A stretch of 64,000 nucleotides of DNA, from contig NZ_JAGGPB010000004.1 in the NCBI RefSeq assembly GCF_018614055.1, positions 310,001-374,000 of the forward strand, written 5' to 3'. The notes beneath the pieces were generated by a model. The model was given only the letters and a program-made list of their open reading frames with translations. It had not been told where the DNA came from and made no database searches. This stretch comes from Streptomyces sp. ISL-98. GTDB lineage: Bacteria > Actinomycetota > Actinomycetes > Streptomycetales > Streptomycetaceae. Position numbers and translations under genes: made by a program. Every line of letters starts with the position of its first letter. Position 1 is the stretch's first letter. Of the stretch, positions 57,755 through 64,000 are shown one piece after another.

Positions 57755-59920
57755 CTACGAGGGCCGCGCGCCCGGGGGTGCCATACGCAGTGCCGCACGG
57801 ATTCCCGCAGGCGATCCCACAGGCACTCCCCCCGAGGCCCTGAACACGTCGATCAGCCTGTGCACCCGCGGCGAGGCAGCCAGGTCCTCCAGGGTTACGG
57901 GATGTCCCTCGGCGTCGGCGACGGGCAGCCGCCAGTTGGGGTACTGGTCCCAGGTGCCCGGCAGATTCTGCGGGCGCCGGTCGCCCACCGCGTCCGGCAG
58001 CCAGATGCCGACCATCCGGGCCGGGGTGCTCAGCAGGAAGCGGTAGACGGCGCGGATCTCGCCCTCCTCGTCGCCCGCGCCCTCCGGCAGCAGCCCCAGC
58101 CGCGCCAGGTACGCCAGCCATTCGGCGACCTCCGCCGTACCCTCGGCGTGCTCCTCCTCCAGGGGCCGGGTGAGCAGGCCCAGGCGGTGGCGCAGCGCGA
58201 CATGGCCGCCGGTGAGGCGGGCGGCGGTGGACGGCAGGTCGTGCGTGGTGGCGGTGGCCACGCAGTGCTCGCGCCAGTTCTGCGGGGGGAGGGGCTCGCC
58301 CGTATCGGCCCAGTCGCGTTCGAACCACAGCACCGAGGTGCCGGAGACTCCGCGCTCGTCGAGGGCGTCGCGCACACCGGGCTCGACGGTGCCGAGGTCC
58401 TCCCCTATGACGACGGCGCCGGCCAGGTGTGCCTCCAGCGCGAGGACGGCGAGCATCGCCTCCGCGTCGTAGCGGACGTACGTCCCCTCCGTGGGCTCGC
58501 GGCCCTCCGGAACCCACCACAACCGGAAGAGCCCCATCACGTGGTCGATGCGCAGGGCGCCGGCATGGCGCAGGAGCCCGCGCAGCAGGCCTCGGAACGG
58601 GGCGTACGCCGCTTCGGCGAGGACGTCCGGGCGCCACGGCGGCAGGCCCCAGTCCTGGCCGCGCGCGTTGAAGGCGTCCGGCGGGGCGCCGACCGACATG
58701 CCCCGGGCGAAGGCGTGCTGCTGCGCCCAGGCGTCGGCGCCGCCGGGATGCACGCCGACGGCCAGGTCGTGCACGACGCCGACAGGCATACCGGCGTCAC
58801 GGGCGGCGCGCTGGGCGGAGGCCAGCTGGGAGTCGGTGAGCCAGGCCAGCCAGCAGTGCAGATCGACCCGGTTGTACAGGTCGGAGCGGGCGTGCCGGAC
58901 CTCGGCGGCGCGCGGGTCGTCGCGCAGCCCGGCGGGCCAGGTGTGCCAGTCCGAGCCGTGCACCTCGGCGAGCGCGCACCAGGTCGCGTGGTCCTCCAGG
59001 GCGGCGCCCTGCTCGGCGAGGAAATCGCAGAAGGCGGCGCGGCGGCCGGGGCCGAGCGGCACCTTCCGTACGGCCTCCAGGGCTTCCTTCTTCAGCTCCC
59101 ACACGGCGTCGCGGTCGATCAGCGCGCCCTTGTTCAGGACGGAGTCGCGCAGCGCGGCGGCCTGTTCGAGCAGGTCTTCGATGCGCGCGCGGTCGCCTGC
59201 CGGGACATGCGCGAACTCGGGCACGTCCTCGACCCGCAGGTGTACGGGATCGGGGAAGCGGCGCGAGGACGGACGGTAGGGCGAGGGGTCCGTCGGCGTA
59301 CCGGGGACGGCCGCGTGCAGCGGATTGATCTGTACGAATCCGACGCCGAGGGAGCGTCCCGACCAGGCGGCCAGTTCGGCGAGGTCTCCGAGGTCGCCCA
59401 TGCCCCAGGAGCGCCGGGACAGCAGGGAGTAGAGCTGGACGAGCAGCCCGTAGGAGCGGCCGGGTGGCTGCGGGACGCGGTCGGGGGCGACGACGAGGGT
59501 GGCGGCCCCCTCGGCCCCGTCCGGCGTGCGCACGCTCAACCGGTGCACGCCGAGCGGCAGTTGACCCCACCCCTCCTCGCCCCGGGGCGGGGTCTGCCAC
59601 TCCACTGGCCACTCCACGGTCTCGCCCTGCTCCGTTTCGACGCGGAGCAGGGCGCCGTCGGGGAGGCCGGTCAGGGCCGGTGGCGGCAGTGGGCCTGCGG
59701 GGCCCGCCCAGGTCACCACCGTCGCGGGCAGCAGACGGTGTGCGGCGGCCGTCCCGTGGGCGTCGAGGGCTGCCCGTACCGCCTCGGGTGTTCCCGCGTC
59801 CACGCCGAGGGCCGCGAGCACGGCCACAACGGTGTCGTCGGGGACCTGGAGGGTGCGGTTCGCCGATGGCTGGTAGGACGTGGCGACGCCGTGCAGGGCG
59901 GCGAGGCGGGCAAGGCCCAT
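57755..59920 (-). CDS. malQ: 4-alpha-glucanotransferase (amylomaltase)
   Basis: Transfers maltosyl and longer units between alpha-1,4-glucans; GH77 family. It has 721 residues, with the N-terminal extension of about 150 residues seen in MalQ of enteric and actinobacterial type. The catalytic nucleophile is Asp459 (RIDHVMGLFRLWW), the acid/base Glu507 (VIGEDLGTV), and the third carboxylate lies in TTHDLPS. ATG 59920 follows directly on the TGA of the small gene upstream (TGAATG), suggesting coupled translation. Confidence 0.96.
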   Translation of the reverse strand: MGLARLAALHGVATSYQPSANRTLQVPDDTVVAVLAALGVDAGTPEAVRAALDAHGTAAAHRLLPATVVTWAGPAGPLPPPALTGLPDGALLRVETEQGETVEWPVEWQTPPRGEEGWGQLPLGVHRLSVRTPDGAEGAATLVVAPDRVPQPPGRSYGLLVQLYSLLSRRSWGMGDLGDLAELAAWSGRSLGVGFVQINPLHAAVPGTPTDPSPYRPSSRRFPDPVHLRVEDVPEFAHVPAGDRARIEDLLEQAAALRDSVLNKGALIDRDAVWELKKEALEAVRKVPLGPGRRAAFCDFLAEQGAALEDHATWCALAEVHGSDWHTWPAGLRDDPRAAEVRHARSDLYNRVDLHCWLAWLTDSQLASAQRAARDAGMPVGVVHDLAVGVHPGGADAWAQQHAFARGMSVGAPPDAFNARGQDWGLPPWRPDVLAEAAYAPFRGLLRGLLRHAGALRIDHVMGLFRLWWVPEGREPTEGTYVRYDAEAMLAVLALEAHLAGAVVIGEDLGTVEPGVRDALDERGVSGTSVLWFERDWADTGEPLPPQNWREHCVATATTHDLPSTAARLTGGHVALRHRLGLLTRPLEEEHAEGTAEVAEWLAYLARLGLLPEGAGDEEGEIRAVYRFLLSTPARMVGIWLPDAVGDRRPQNLPGTWDQYPNWRLPVADAEGHPVTLEDLAASPRVHRLIDVFRASGGVPVGSPAGIRAALRMAPPGARPS

Positions 59921-60190: not shown

Positions 60191-60378
60191 AGGGGCCTCC
60201 CTACGGTGGTCTACGTGGACACAGCAGCCCTACCCAGTGGGCGCGGCCGCAGACGTATACATTCCCCGAACGTGTCCCGGGTCACAATCCGTTCCCCCTT
60301 GGGAAATTGACAGCTCGGCGGCCGGGTGGTGGGCTCGGTGCCCACACTGGGATGTCTGAGGCGACTGGGGAGACGGCT

Positions 60379-63366
60379 GTGCAGCTCGGGCGCAGGAGAG
60401 GCGCGACCGCTGTCGCGGTCGCCGTAATAGGCGGTCTGCTCGGCGGTGCGCACGGTGCGTTCGCCGCCCCGTCCGACCCAGGCCCCGGTACCCCCGCCAC
60501 CACCTTGCCGGACCGCGAGAGCGATGCCGCGCTGCCACCCGTTTGGCCGCGTCCGCAGTCGATGCGGGCGGCGGGGCCGGCGGTCCCCGTGGGCGACGAC
60601 GCGGTGCTCGTAGCGGGGCGCGGATCCGATTCGTACGCCGTGGAGGCGCTCGAAGCGGTGCTGCGCGGGGCGGGCGTGAAGACGCTGTACAGCGTCAAGG
60701 AGGGCGAGCCGGTGCCCGCGCGCGGCCTCGTCGTGAAGGCGGGCGGAACCGGCGCGCAGGACGCGCTGCGTGCCCTGCGCGCCACCGCACGTGACGACCT
60801 GCCGTCCGGCGGCTACAGGATCGCCGTCGGCAGCGTCGACGGCCGGGACACGGTCGCGCTCGACGGGATCGGCGACGACGGTCTCTTCCACGCCGCGCAG
60901 ACCCTGCGGCAGCTCGTCACAGCCGCCAAGGACGGGCAGGGCGGGCAGGAGATCGCCGGGGCCATGGTCCGCGACTGGCCGGGGACGGCCGTACGCGGGA
61001 TGACCGAGGGTTTCTACGGGCAGCCGTGGACGCCCGAACAGCGCCTCGCGCAGATCGACTTCATGGCCCGCACCAAGCAGAACCGTTATCTCTACGCGCC
61101 CGGCGACGACCCGTACCGCCAGGCACGCTGGCGCGACCCCTACCCGGCGGACCAGCGCGCCGCCTTCCGGGCGCTCGCCGAACGGGCCCGGCGCAGCCAT
61201 GTGACGCTGGGCTGGGCCGTGGCTCCCGGGCAGGCGATGTGCATGTCGTCGGACGACGACATCAAGGCGCTCAACCGCAAGTTCGACGCGATGTGGGCGC
61301 TCGGGGTGCGGTCCTTCCAGCTCCAGTTCCAGGACGTCAGCTACAGCGAGTGGCACTGCGGCCAGGACTCCGACACGTTCGGCTCGGGCCCCCGTGCGGC
61401 GGCGAAGGCGCACGCCCGCGTGGCCAACGCCGTGGCGAAGCATCTGACTGAGCGGCACCCGGGGGCGGAGCCGCTGTCCGTGATGCCGACGGAGTTCTAC
61501 CAGGAGGGCAACACCGCGTACCGGCAGGCCCTGGCCGCCCAGCTGGACGACGGGGTGCAGGTCGCGTGGACGGGTGTCGGCGTCGTACCGAAGACGATCA
61601 CCGGGCGTGAACTGGCGGGCGCGCGCACCGCGTTCAGGCGTCCGCTGGTCACCATGGACAACTACCCCGTCAACGATTACGCGCAGGACCGCATATTCCT
61701 CGGCCCCTATACGGGCCGTGAGCCTGCCGTCGCGACCGGCTCGGCGGCTCTCCTCGCCAACGCCATGGAACAGGCCTCCGCCTCCCGCATCCCCCTCTTC
61801 ACGGCCGCCGACTACGCCTGGAACCCCCGGGGTTACCAGCCGCAGGAGTCCTGGCAGGCCGCGATCGACGACCTGGCGGGCGCCGACGCACCCGCCCGCG
61901 AGGCGATGCGGGCGCTGGCCGGCAATGACGCCTCCTCCGTACTGGGCGGCGAGGAATCGGCGTATCTGCGTCCGCTGATCCACGACTTCTGGCGTGCGCG
62001 TACGTCCACGGACCAGGGCGTGCGGGACGCGGCGGCCAAGAGGCTGCGCGCCGCCTTCACCGTGATGCGGGAGGCGCCGCAGCGGCTCCGGTCGTCGGCG
62101 GGCGGTGCGTTCGACGACGAGGTACGGCCGTGGATCGAGCAGCTGGCGCGGTACGGCACGGCGGGCGAGCTCTCCGTCGACCTGCTCCAGGCGCAGGCGC
62201 GCGGCGACGGCCGGGCCGCCTGGCGGGCGTCACTCGACCTGGACGAGCTGCGCGGCTCCCTCAAGGCGAGCCCGGCCACCGTCGGCAAGGGCGTGCTCGA
62301 CCCGTTCCTCACGCAGGTGCGCAAGGAGGCGGACGCCTGGACCGGCGCCGACCGCAAGGGCGGAAGCGTCTCCGGGGGCCCGGGCTCGTACACCGTGCAG
62401 CTCGGCCGGCCGCGTCCCATCGAGGCGCTGACCGCCATGACGGAGCCCGGTAAGGGCGAGGGCGCGGCCGTCGAGGCGCACGTCCCCGGTCAGGGCTGGC
62501 GGCGCATCGGCACGCTGCACGGCAGCGGCTGGACGCAGGCGGACGCCGAGGATGCGCGCGCGGATGCGATACGCGTGTCCTGGCAGGAGTCCCGGAAGGG
62601 CGCCGATGCGCCCGCCGTCCACCACCTCGTGCCCTGGTTCGCGGACGAGCCGCGTGCGGAGCTGCGGCTCAAGCGCACCGAGACGGACGCGGAGATCGGC
62701 GGCAGGCCGCAGCGCGTCGAGGCACGGCTGACCGGCCAGCGCCCCGGGGATGTGCGGGCCCGGCTGACGGCCGAGCCGCCCAAGGGCATAGCGGTGAGGG
62801 CGCCGCGGACGACGACGGTGCCGCGCGGCTCCCGCGCCACCGTCCCCGTCGAGATCAGCGTGGACAAGTCGGTGCCTGCGGGCGAGTACAAGGTGCCGGT
62901 CGCCTTCGACGGCCAGGAGAGCGTCCTGACGGTGCGGGCGTTCCCGCGCACGGGGGGCCCGGACCTGATCCGCGGCGAGGGCGCGAGGGTCTCGTCGTCC
63001 GGCGACGAGACCGCCGACTTCCCGGCCCCGGCCGCCGCCGACGGCGACCCGGCAACCCGCTGGACCTCGCCGGTCGGCCCTTCCGCGTGGTGGCAGGCCG
63101 AGCTGGCGGAGCCGGTGCGGCTCGGCCAGGTCGTACTGCACTGGCAGGAGGCGTACGCGAAGAAGTACCGCGTCCAGGTGTCGGAGGACGGCCGTACATG
63201 GCGCACGGCGGCAACCGTCAGGGACGGGCAGGGCGGGCGCGAGTCGGTGCGGATGGATGCGAAGGGGGCGCGCTTCGTGCGGGTGCAGTGCGACGAGCGG
63301 GCGCTGCCGTTCGGTTACTCGCTGTTCGGGGTGGAGGCGTACGCGGTGGATGCGCCCTCGGAGTGA
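60379..63366 (+). CDS. Secreted GH84-type beta-N-acetylglucosaminidase with CBM32-like tail
   Basis: Predicted extracellular glycoside hydrolase of 995 residues. GTG 60379 is preferred (GGGGAGA five bases upstream); ATG 60352 is an alternative adding nine residues. The signal peptide is RRRGATAVAVAVIGGLLGGAHGAFA cut at AFA-AP. A GH20-like helper domain (about 45-200) is followed by the GH84 barrel: TEGFYGQPWTPEQRL, RTKQNRYLYAPGDDPY. At the catalytic position, where the family has an Asp-Asp pair, the sequence reads QFQDVSYSEW (Gln318-Asp319). A helical domain, an immunoglobulin-like region and a discoidin-type CBM32 (DGDPATRWTSPVG, end) complete it. Confidence 0.9.
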   Translation: MQLGRRRGATAVAVAVIGGLLGGAHGAFAAPSDPGPGTPATTLPDRESDAALPPVWPRPQSMRAAGPAVPVGDDAVLVAGRGSDSYAVEALEAVLRGAGVKTLYSVKEGEPVPARGLVVKAGGTGAQDALRALRATARDDLPSGGYRIAVGSVDGRDTVALDGIGDDGLFHAAQTLRQLVTAAKDGQGGQEIAGAMVRDWPGTAVRGMTEGFYGQPWTPEQRLAQIDFMARTKQNRYLYAPGDDPYRQARWRDPYPADQRAAFRALAERARRSHVTLGWAVAPGQAMCMSSDDDIKALNRKFDAMWALGVRSFQLQFQDVSYSEWHCGQDSDTFGSGPRAAAKAHARVANAVAKHLTERHPGAEPLSVMPTEFYQEGNTAYRQALAAQLDDGVQVAWTGVGVVPKTITGRELAGARTAFRRPLVTMDNYPVNDYAQDRIFLGPYTGREPAVATGSAALLANAMEQASASRIPLFTAADYAWNPRGYQPQESWQAAIDDLAGADAPAREAMRALAGNDASSVLGGEESAYLRPLIHDFWRARTSTDQGVRDAAAKRLRAAFTVMREAPQRLRSSAGGAFDDEVRPWIEQLARYGTAGELSVDLLQAQARGDGRAAWRASLDLDELRGSLKASPATVGKGVLDPFLTQVRKEADAWTGADRKGGSVSGGPGSYTVQLGRPRPIEALTAMTEPGKGEGAAVEAHVPGQGWRRIGTLHGSGWTQADAEDARADAIRVSWQESRKGADAPAVHHLVPWFADEPRAELRLKRTETDAEIGGRPQRVEARLTGQRPGDVRARLTAEPPKGIAVRAPRTTTVPRGSRATVPVEISVDKSVPAGEYKVPVAFDGQESVLTVRAFPRTGGPDLIRGEGARVSSSGDETADFPAPAAADGDPATRWTSPVGPSAWWQAELAEPVRLGQVVLHWQEAYAKKYRVQVSEDGRTWRTAATVRDGQGGRESVRMDAKGARFVRVQCDERALPFGYSLFGVEAYAVDAPSE

Positions 63367-63464: not shown

Positions 63465-64000
63465 TCAGGCGGAAATGCCGTCGATCCGGGCCAGCGCATC
63501 ATCCGCGCCGAACGGCTGCAAGTACGGCAGCCAGCGCGGATCCCTGTGCCCGGTCCCGATGATCCGCCAGGCGAGCCCGGACGGCGGGGCGGGCTGATGG
63601 CGCAGCCGCCAGCCGAGCTCCATCAGGTGCCGGTCGGCCTTGACGTGATTGCAGCGGCGGCAGGCCGCCACCACGTTCTCCCAGGCGTGCTGTCCGCCTC
63701 GGCTGCGCGGAATGACGTGGTCGACGCTGGTTGCGACGCCACCGCAGTACATACAGCGCCCGCCGTCCCTGGCGAAGAGCGCACGGCGGGTGAGAGGGAC
63801 GGGCCCCCGGTAGGGGACCCGCACGAACCGTTTGAGCCGCACGACACTGGGTGCCGGGACGGCGCGGGTCGCGCTGTGCATGAAGGCGCCGGATTCCTCG
63901 AGGCAGAGAGCCTTGTTCTCCAGGACGAGGACGAGCGCGCGGCGGAGCGGTACGACGCCGAGCGGCTCGTACGACGCATTGAGGACCAGGACATGCGGCA
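63465..64000 (-). CDS. HNH endonuclease family protein (runs off right edge)
   Basis: Reading leftward from the right edge, the frame is open through 64000, where codons CCG CAT GTC CTG (PHVL) follow a TG. The start codon's first base therefore probably lies just outside the window. About 178 residues are inside: VLNASYEPLGVVPLRRA, then RRALFARDGGRCMYCGG, SVDHVIPRSRGG and CRRCNHVKADR. These are the HNH motif with four zinc-binding cysteines. The protein is widely conserved in actinobacteria and its biological role is unclear. Confidence 0.92.
   Translation of the reverse strand, partial: PHVLVLNASYEPLGVVPLRRALVLVLENKALCLEESGAFMHSATRAVPAPSVVRLKRFVRVPYRGPVPLTRRALFARDGGRCMYCGGVATSVDHVIPRSRGGQHAWENVVAACRRCNHVKADRHLMELGWRLRHQPAPPSGLAWRIIGTGHRDPRWLPYLQPFGADDALARIDGISA

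Follow-up and report, generated by a model that had tools for sequence, protein, structure and literature searches.

A GH84-like protein of Streptomyces that has lost the polarizing Lys-Asp pair belongs to a conserved Streptomycetaceae clade of putative pseudoglycosidases

In human OGA the polarizing aspartate, D174, is salt-bridged by K98, an interaction described as likely to lower its pKa (PMC10636738). The two catalytic aspartates of bacterial GH84 enzymes have been altered by engineering, and structure entries for BtGH84 D242N/D243N and CpNagJ D298N (PDB IDs: 2wzh, 2wzi, 2ydq, 2yds) give an oxazoline or a glycopeptide as the bound ligand. Pseudoglycosidases are a known kind of protein, and a published account of them includes YKL-39 (GH18), klotho (GH1) and CyRPA (GH33) (PMC7828330). 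Limited searches of the open-access literature found no report of a GH84 pseudoenzyme. Here we describe a GH84-like protein in which the polarizing Asp and its Lys partner are both replaced; it is encoded in a 64,000-nucleotide stretch of the genome of Streptomyces sp. ISL-98 (the window).

The gene lies on the forward strand of the window (60352..63366) as one open frame, which begins at ATG 60352, giving 1004 amino acids, or at GTG 60379, the other likely start, and whose stop codon ends at 63366. Residues are numbered here from the ATG. The N terminus resembles a signal peptide, as judged by eye only, and we infer that the protein is secreted. A GH20b-like N-terminal domain (60535..60978, residues 62-209; Pfam PF02838, E 4e-18) is followed by the GH84 barrel (60994..61920, residues 215-523; PF07555, NAGidase, E 1.1e-107), the NagJ_C post-catalytic domain (61966..62310, residues 539-653; PF21774, E 6.9e-19) and an F5/8 type C (CBM32-like) domain (62992..63300, residues 881-983; PF00754, E 6.9e-19). 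The NAGidase profile is matched over its full length with a score of 360.3 bits, far above its cut-off of 25. Profile-based annotation is therefore likely to count proteins of this type as beta-N-acetylglucosaminidases, and so to overstate the GlcNAc- and chitin-degrading capacity of Streptomyces. The best solved relatives of the protein are the GH84 enzymes of Clostridium perfringens and Bacteroides thetaiotaomicron, while the best solved matches to its F5/8 domain are domains of a glucanase/chitosanase. Binding motifs of this kind are common in F5/8 domains, and the match offers chitosan as a lead to a possible ligand.

A structural model of residues 37-656, built from an input alignment that contained no intact-type relatives, has a mean pLDDT of 76.8 and is predicted to adopt the GH84 barrel fold. 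Its best match is 7k41 (Z 32.5, rmsd 4.4 over 506 residues), and it also superimposes on 2v5c (Z 31.4, rmsd 4.5 over 518 residues). The active-site loops of the model have pLDDT values below 50, so no active-site geometry was drawn from it.

The first-pass annotation had proposed that the first catalytic Asp is replaced by Gln, and that the protein might be inactive, might use a different mechanism or might be a lectin. Positions 61321-61350 translate as L-Q-F-Q-D-V-S-Y-S-E, and HMMER alignments to CpGH84B and CpNagJ place SFQLQFQDV under SFAIYWDDI, with Gln327 (CAG, 61330..61332) at the polarizing position and Asp328 (GAC, 61333..61335) at the general acid/base position; the substitution is thus borne out, and its original numbering as Gln318 is right if GTG 60379 is the start. 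CpNagJ D297/D298 align with Gln327/Asp328 in both the HMMER and the multiple alignments, and the gap in the HMMER alignment starts only downstream of the pair. No other Asp pair stands at the site in these alignments, which rules out a misalignment that hides one. The Gln-Asp pair is shared by 121 of the 170 distinct domains that make up the clade described below and so is not a sequencing error.

The remainder of the pocket combines loss and retention. We take the CpNagJ residue numbers other than D298 to be as given here, and they are consistent with the alignments. Gly251 (61102..61104) stands at the Lys of intact GH84s (CpNagJ K218, human OGA K98), Met435 (61654..61656) at the active-site Trp (W394) and Phe382 (61495..61497) at the active-site Tyr (Y335), while the positions of CpNagJ G187, T366, V370, N396, D401 and N429 are retained. 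The last group includes Asp442 (61675..61677), the sugar-binding Asp of GH84 (D401). As Lys and polarizing Asp are both replaced, a functional pair has been lost together and not one residue; the protein has neither the Asp-Asp pair nor the Lys paired with a polarizing Asp that are expected of an active GH84. Cys297 (61240..61242) and Cys336 (61357..61359), both invariant in 76 aligned rows, may form a disulfide.

To place these changes we compared 170 distinct altered domains from the Streptomycetaceae (Streptomyces and other genera; identical domains counted once) with 40 distinct intact-type domains, which include phylum-wide loci and one viral locus. The sample is biased towards the query, since the best 80 of 435 relatives were kept, and the residue counts leave out L227 and L230, which have Ala at the Lys site and keep Asp-Asp, and L224/L228, one gene with a shortened barrel. 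Intact-type domains have Lys and Asp-Asp in 40/40 cases and Trp in 39/40. In the clade the Lys position is Gly in 169 domains and Ala in one, the Trp position is Met in 152, Leu in 12, Gln in four and Val in two, and the Tyr position is Tyr in 106, Phe in 63 and His in one. The general acid position is Asp in 157, Asn in 12 and Gly in one, and the polarizing position is Gln in 128, Leu in 29, Glu, Ala and Asp in three each, Pro in two, and Gly and Val in one each. In one clade member (locus L256) the pair is again Asp-Asp, with the Lys absent. By contrast with these losses, Asp442 is present in 170/170 clade domains, as in 40/40 intact ones, and the Asn437 position is Asn in 165/170, which suggests that the sugar pocket probably persists. 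Against a fully conserved sugar pocket, the N429 position has drifted in some clade members (N 128, G 16, A 12, S 9, T 3, H 1, one other residue), and the G187 position is Gly in 134/170. This drift would suit a purely structural or protein-binding role with no sugar in the barrel, which we consider highly doubtful given the near-invariance of Asp442 and Asn437 and the presence of the F5/8 domain in 6/6 clade members scanned.

The composition of the polarizing site bears on whether Gln itself has taken over catalysis. Among the 117 Streptomyces sequences alone the site reads Q 113, E 3, G 1 and looked like a conserved Gln. The protein might still be a beta-GlcNAcase or a transglycosylase, with Gln as its polarizing residue. 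In GH85 the polarizing role is held by Asn, Asp-to-Gln mutants of GH18 endoglycosidases act as glycosynthases, and Gln can serve as acceptor in a hydrogen bond with the acetamide. The oxazoline given for the BtGH84 D242N entry (2wzh) indicates that an amide at this position can hold the intermediate. The orthologs from other genera, however, carry Leu, Pro, Ala or Val at the site, with Gly also found in the clade, and the Lys partner is absent in 170/170. Leu, Pro, Ala or Val cannot polarize an acetamide, which rules out Gln-specific catalysis as a clade-wide rule. An amide conserved at the polarizing position, as in a GH85-like site, is likewise absent from the clade, although Gln is present in this protein itself. 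The polarizing position thus carries no conserved chemistry, it is improbable that Gln serves as a new catalytic device, and we regard a Gln-polarized enzyme as distinctly unlikely. Residual or altered activity may nevertheless persist in Gln-Asp members such as the present protein; human OGA stripped of the side chain of this Asp retains a fraction of its rate.

Retention of Asp328 and the appearance of new conserved residues raise the alternative of an active enzyme with altered specificity, which would cleave another sugar through Asp328, perhaps with Glu333 (61348..61350), and without acetamide assistance. Consistent with this, the clade has near-fixed new residues at R256, Q294, Q323, E333 and R391, the acid at 333 being E in 166, H in three and D in one of 170, and its long stem is followed by strong conservation. 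Set against it are about seven losses of Asp328 with no relaxation of selection, the replacement of Glu333 by His in 3/170, and the low confidence of the model loops, in which Glu333 is not placeable; we consider such an enzyme unlikely. A broader reading, which we consider less likely than not, is that a single remodelling turned the barrel into a receptor, or an enzyme of a new kind, directed at a ligand other than beta-GlcNAc, with the Lys-Asp clamp removed as a unit and the lineage pocket R256/Q294/Q323/E333/R391 fixed. If so, the Streptomycetaceae would widely retain a secreted protein that acts as a sensor, a scaffold or an enzyme.

The 12 natural Asn residues at the acid/base position touch on a further alternative, a natural GH84 phosphorylase, at least among Gln-Asn members. 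Replacement of Asp by Asn at this position is reported to have made phosphorylases of two bacterial GH84 hydrolases (PMC8819650). Those engineered enzymes appear, from the same report, to have been changed only at the acid/base residue, so that the polarizing Asp remained (PMC8819650). In the present protein, by contrast, Asp328 is kept and Asn is absent from the position. The protein also looks secreted, and phosphorolysis is unlikely to pay outside the cell. We consider this reading extremely improbable.

Phylogenetic analysis indicates that the altered state arose once. A PMSF tree was built from 83 rows, among them 51 of the 117 clade domains collected by that stage. These 51 altered Streptomyces rows are recovered as a single clade (support 100/100) that lies within the intact Streptomyces GH84s and has a stem 1.48 changes per site long. 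All 170 altered domains, those of other genera included, likewise group together (FastTree support 0.93) in a tree which, with its parsimony analysis, also left out L039, L043, L044 and L165. By parsimony, the general acid was lost seven times and the polarizing site changed 11 times within the clade, with no such event among the intact tips. The clade accounts for 21.07 of 36.87 units of tree length, and the probability that all 18 changes would fall within it by chance is about 4e-5 if rates were equal, a figure that ignores tree uncertainty and leaves the stem change uncounted. One tip of the PMSF tree, L141 (NZ_PXWG01000201.1), is titled Streptosporangium nondiastaticum and groups closely with Streptomyces roseoverticillatus; its genus name may be wrong.

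The genomic position is also conserved. Upstream lies a presumed malQ-like gene (57755..59920, reverse strand), found at 104 of 106 Streptomyces loci with room for it, and downstream a presumed HNH-endonuclease-like gene (63465..63998, reverse strand, cut by the window end), found at 116 of 119; these counts include repeats of one place from two collections, and both gene names are our assignments from the sequences. In other genera HNH is present at 15/15 loci and malQ at 11/13 loci with room, in the opposite orientation once (L241). We take the clade genes to be orthologs on the strength of these conserved malQ-HNH neighbours.

The altered type is widespread and does not appear to depend on an intact partner. 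The source genome also encodes a second GH84 (L001) with these residues intact. Across 61 Streptomyces genomes, 48 have a GH84 match, with the altered type in 42, the intact type in 21 and both in 15; the clade type thus occurs without the intact one in 27 of the 42 genomes that carry it, which disfavours an obligate partnership with an intact paralog. The exact DNA motif of the altered site, a search that misses variants, occurs in at least 180 of 392 Streptomyces genomes. GH84 of either type was found in 285 of 394 genomes of the family sample and in 13 of 296 of the phylum-wide sample, in which all ten domains from outside Streptomyces have Lys and Asp-Asp. In one further locus comparison seven loci were skipped for want of an exact search motif and seven more fell into no class. 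A scan of viral contigs returned one GH84 locus, L165 (IMGVR_UViG_2788500337_000004), with Lys and Asp-Asp intact.

The survey also returned several unusual loci. L224/L242 (G741:C4:5261482-5262373), from another genus and within the altered clade, has a shortened barrel with no GH20b domain found, and its pair reads Leu-Glu. L227 and L230 (G846:C1:930090-931034, 6871477-6872421), from one genome, have Ala for Lys and Phe for Trp with Asp-Asp kept, and represent a second kind of altered GH84. G686, from another genus of the family, has five GH84 matches (L202, L225, L229, L231 and G686:C22:91727-92629), and the four loci examined are intact-type.

Pairwise dN/dS values, which are not a codon-model test, reveal that purifying selection continues where catalytic residues are lost. 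YN00 estimates span 0.027-0.109 in pairs without one or both residues and 0.033-0.092 in five intact pairs. Six pairs among four Gln-Asn sequences give 0.051-0.109, a further Gln-Asn pair, L196-L198, 0.107, the Val-Asn/Ala-Asn pair 0.046, twelve Leu-Asp pairs 0.027-0.090, one Leu-Asp/Leu-Asn pair 0.043, and eight pairs with Gln-Asp, one of them against a Gln-Asn sequence, 0.056-0.083. NG86 values are higher than YN00 throughout and remain below 1: 0.21-0.36 for Gln-Asn, 0.175-0.298 for Gln-Asp, 0.25-0.30 for intact, and 0.18-0.48 for the Leu-type and Val-Asn/Ala-Asn pairs. Eight deep pairs gave NG86 values of 0.36-0.51 and no YN00 value; YN00 also returned none for one intact pair and another deep-pair set, and one pair was identical. 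Loss of the general acid is accompanied by no visible relaxation, and the upper Leu-type NG86 values may leave room for some.

The altered and intact types also differ upstream. Using what we take to be the DasR operator consensus with up to two mismatches, a DasR-like site was found upstream of 11/22 intact Streptomyces GH84 genes and in 0/107 clade upstream regions, 13 of which had one at three mismatches; shuffled regions gave about 4 on average, and eight loci were skipped for want of an exact search motif. This difference suggests that the clade lies outside the GlcNAc/chitin regulon. The intact paralog L001 has no DasR-like site upstream (best, four mismatches). Palindromes near TGGTYTAGACCA, one to two mismatches from the presumed consensus, occur upstream of intact L003-L005, L007-L009 and L018-L022.

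Taken together, these results favour, with a probability of roughly 60%, a secreted pseudo-GH84 that would bind a glycan and not cleave it. The acetamide-polarizing Lys-Asp pair would have been dismantled once, in an ancestor of the Streptomycetaceae clade. Because substrate-assisted beta-GlcNAc cleavage relies on this pair, any hydrolysis by the protein is predicted to be too slow to be useful. Of the possibilities raised by the first-pass annotation, inactivity gains support from the loss of Lys and Trp, the variable polarizing site and about seven acid losses under purifying selection, while a different, Gln-specific mechanism is disfavoured clade-wide because Gln is not conserved. The ortholog retained at the malQ-HNH locus would most likely serve to bind glycans, with the sugar still held through the Asp442/Asn437 side of the pocket and further binding added by the C-terminal CBM32-like domain. 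YKL-39 and other pseudoglycosidases, as summarized in PMC7828330, provide the analogy on which a lectin role is favoured here. Several points count against a pseudo-GH84: Asp328 is kept in most of the clade, this protein included, as expected of an enzyme; a new acid, Glu333, has become fixed; Asp-Asp occurs again in L256, albeit without Lys; and both the hydrogen-bonding capacity of Gln and the residual rate of human OGA noted above are compatible with some activity.

The clade offers many natural substitutions at two catalytic positions, through which the loss of catalysis in the O-GlcNAcase fold becomes testable, and its members may prove to be naturally occurring glycan binders of GH84 type, similar to the engineered D298N traps. 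The protein shares with CpNagJ, BtGH84 and human OGA its sequence family, its fold, the order N-domain-barrel-NagJ_C, the acid/base Asp and the sugar-binding Asp, and differs from them by substitutions at the polarizing Asp, at the Lys paired with it and at the active-site Trp and, in this protein, by the change of Tyr to Phe. The same two positions are altered in the engineered BtGH84 D242N/D243N and CpNagJ D298N proteins; those each carry one change, made in the laboratory, and keep the Lys, whereas here the change is natural, introduces Gln and is accompanied by loss of the Lys. As in YKL-39, klotho and CyRPA, as portrayed in PMC7828330, a glycosidase fold that has lost catalytic residues relative to active relatives is kept by purifying selection, in what we regard as an analogy of function. 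Those proteins belong to other GH families, and the binding of chito-oligosaccharides, measured for YKL-39 according to the same source, has as its counterpart here a predicted glycan binding.
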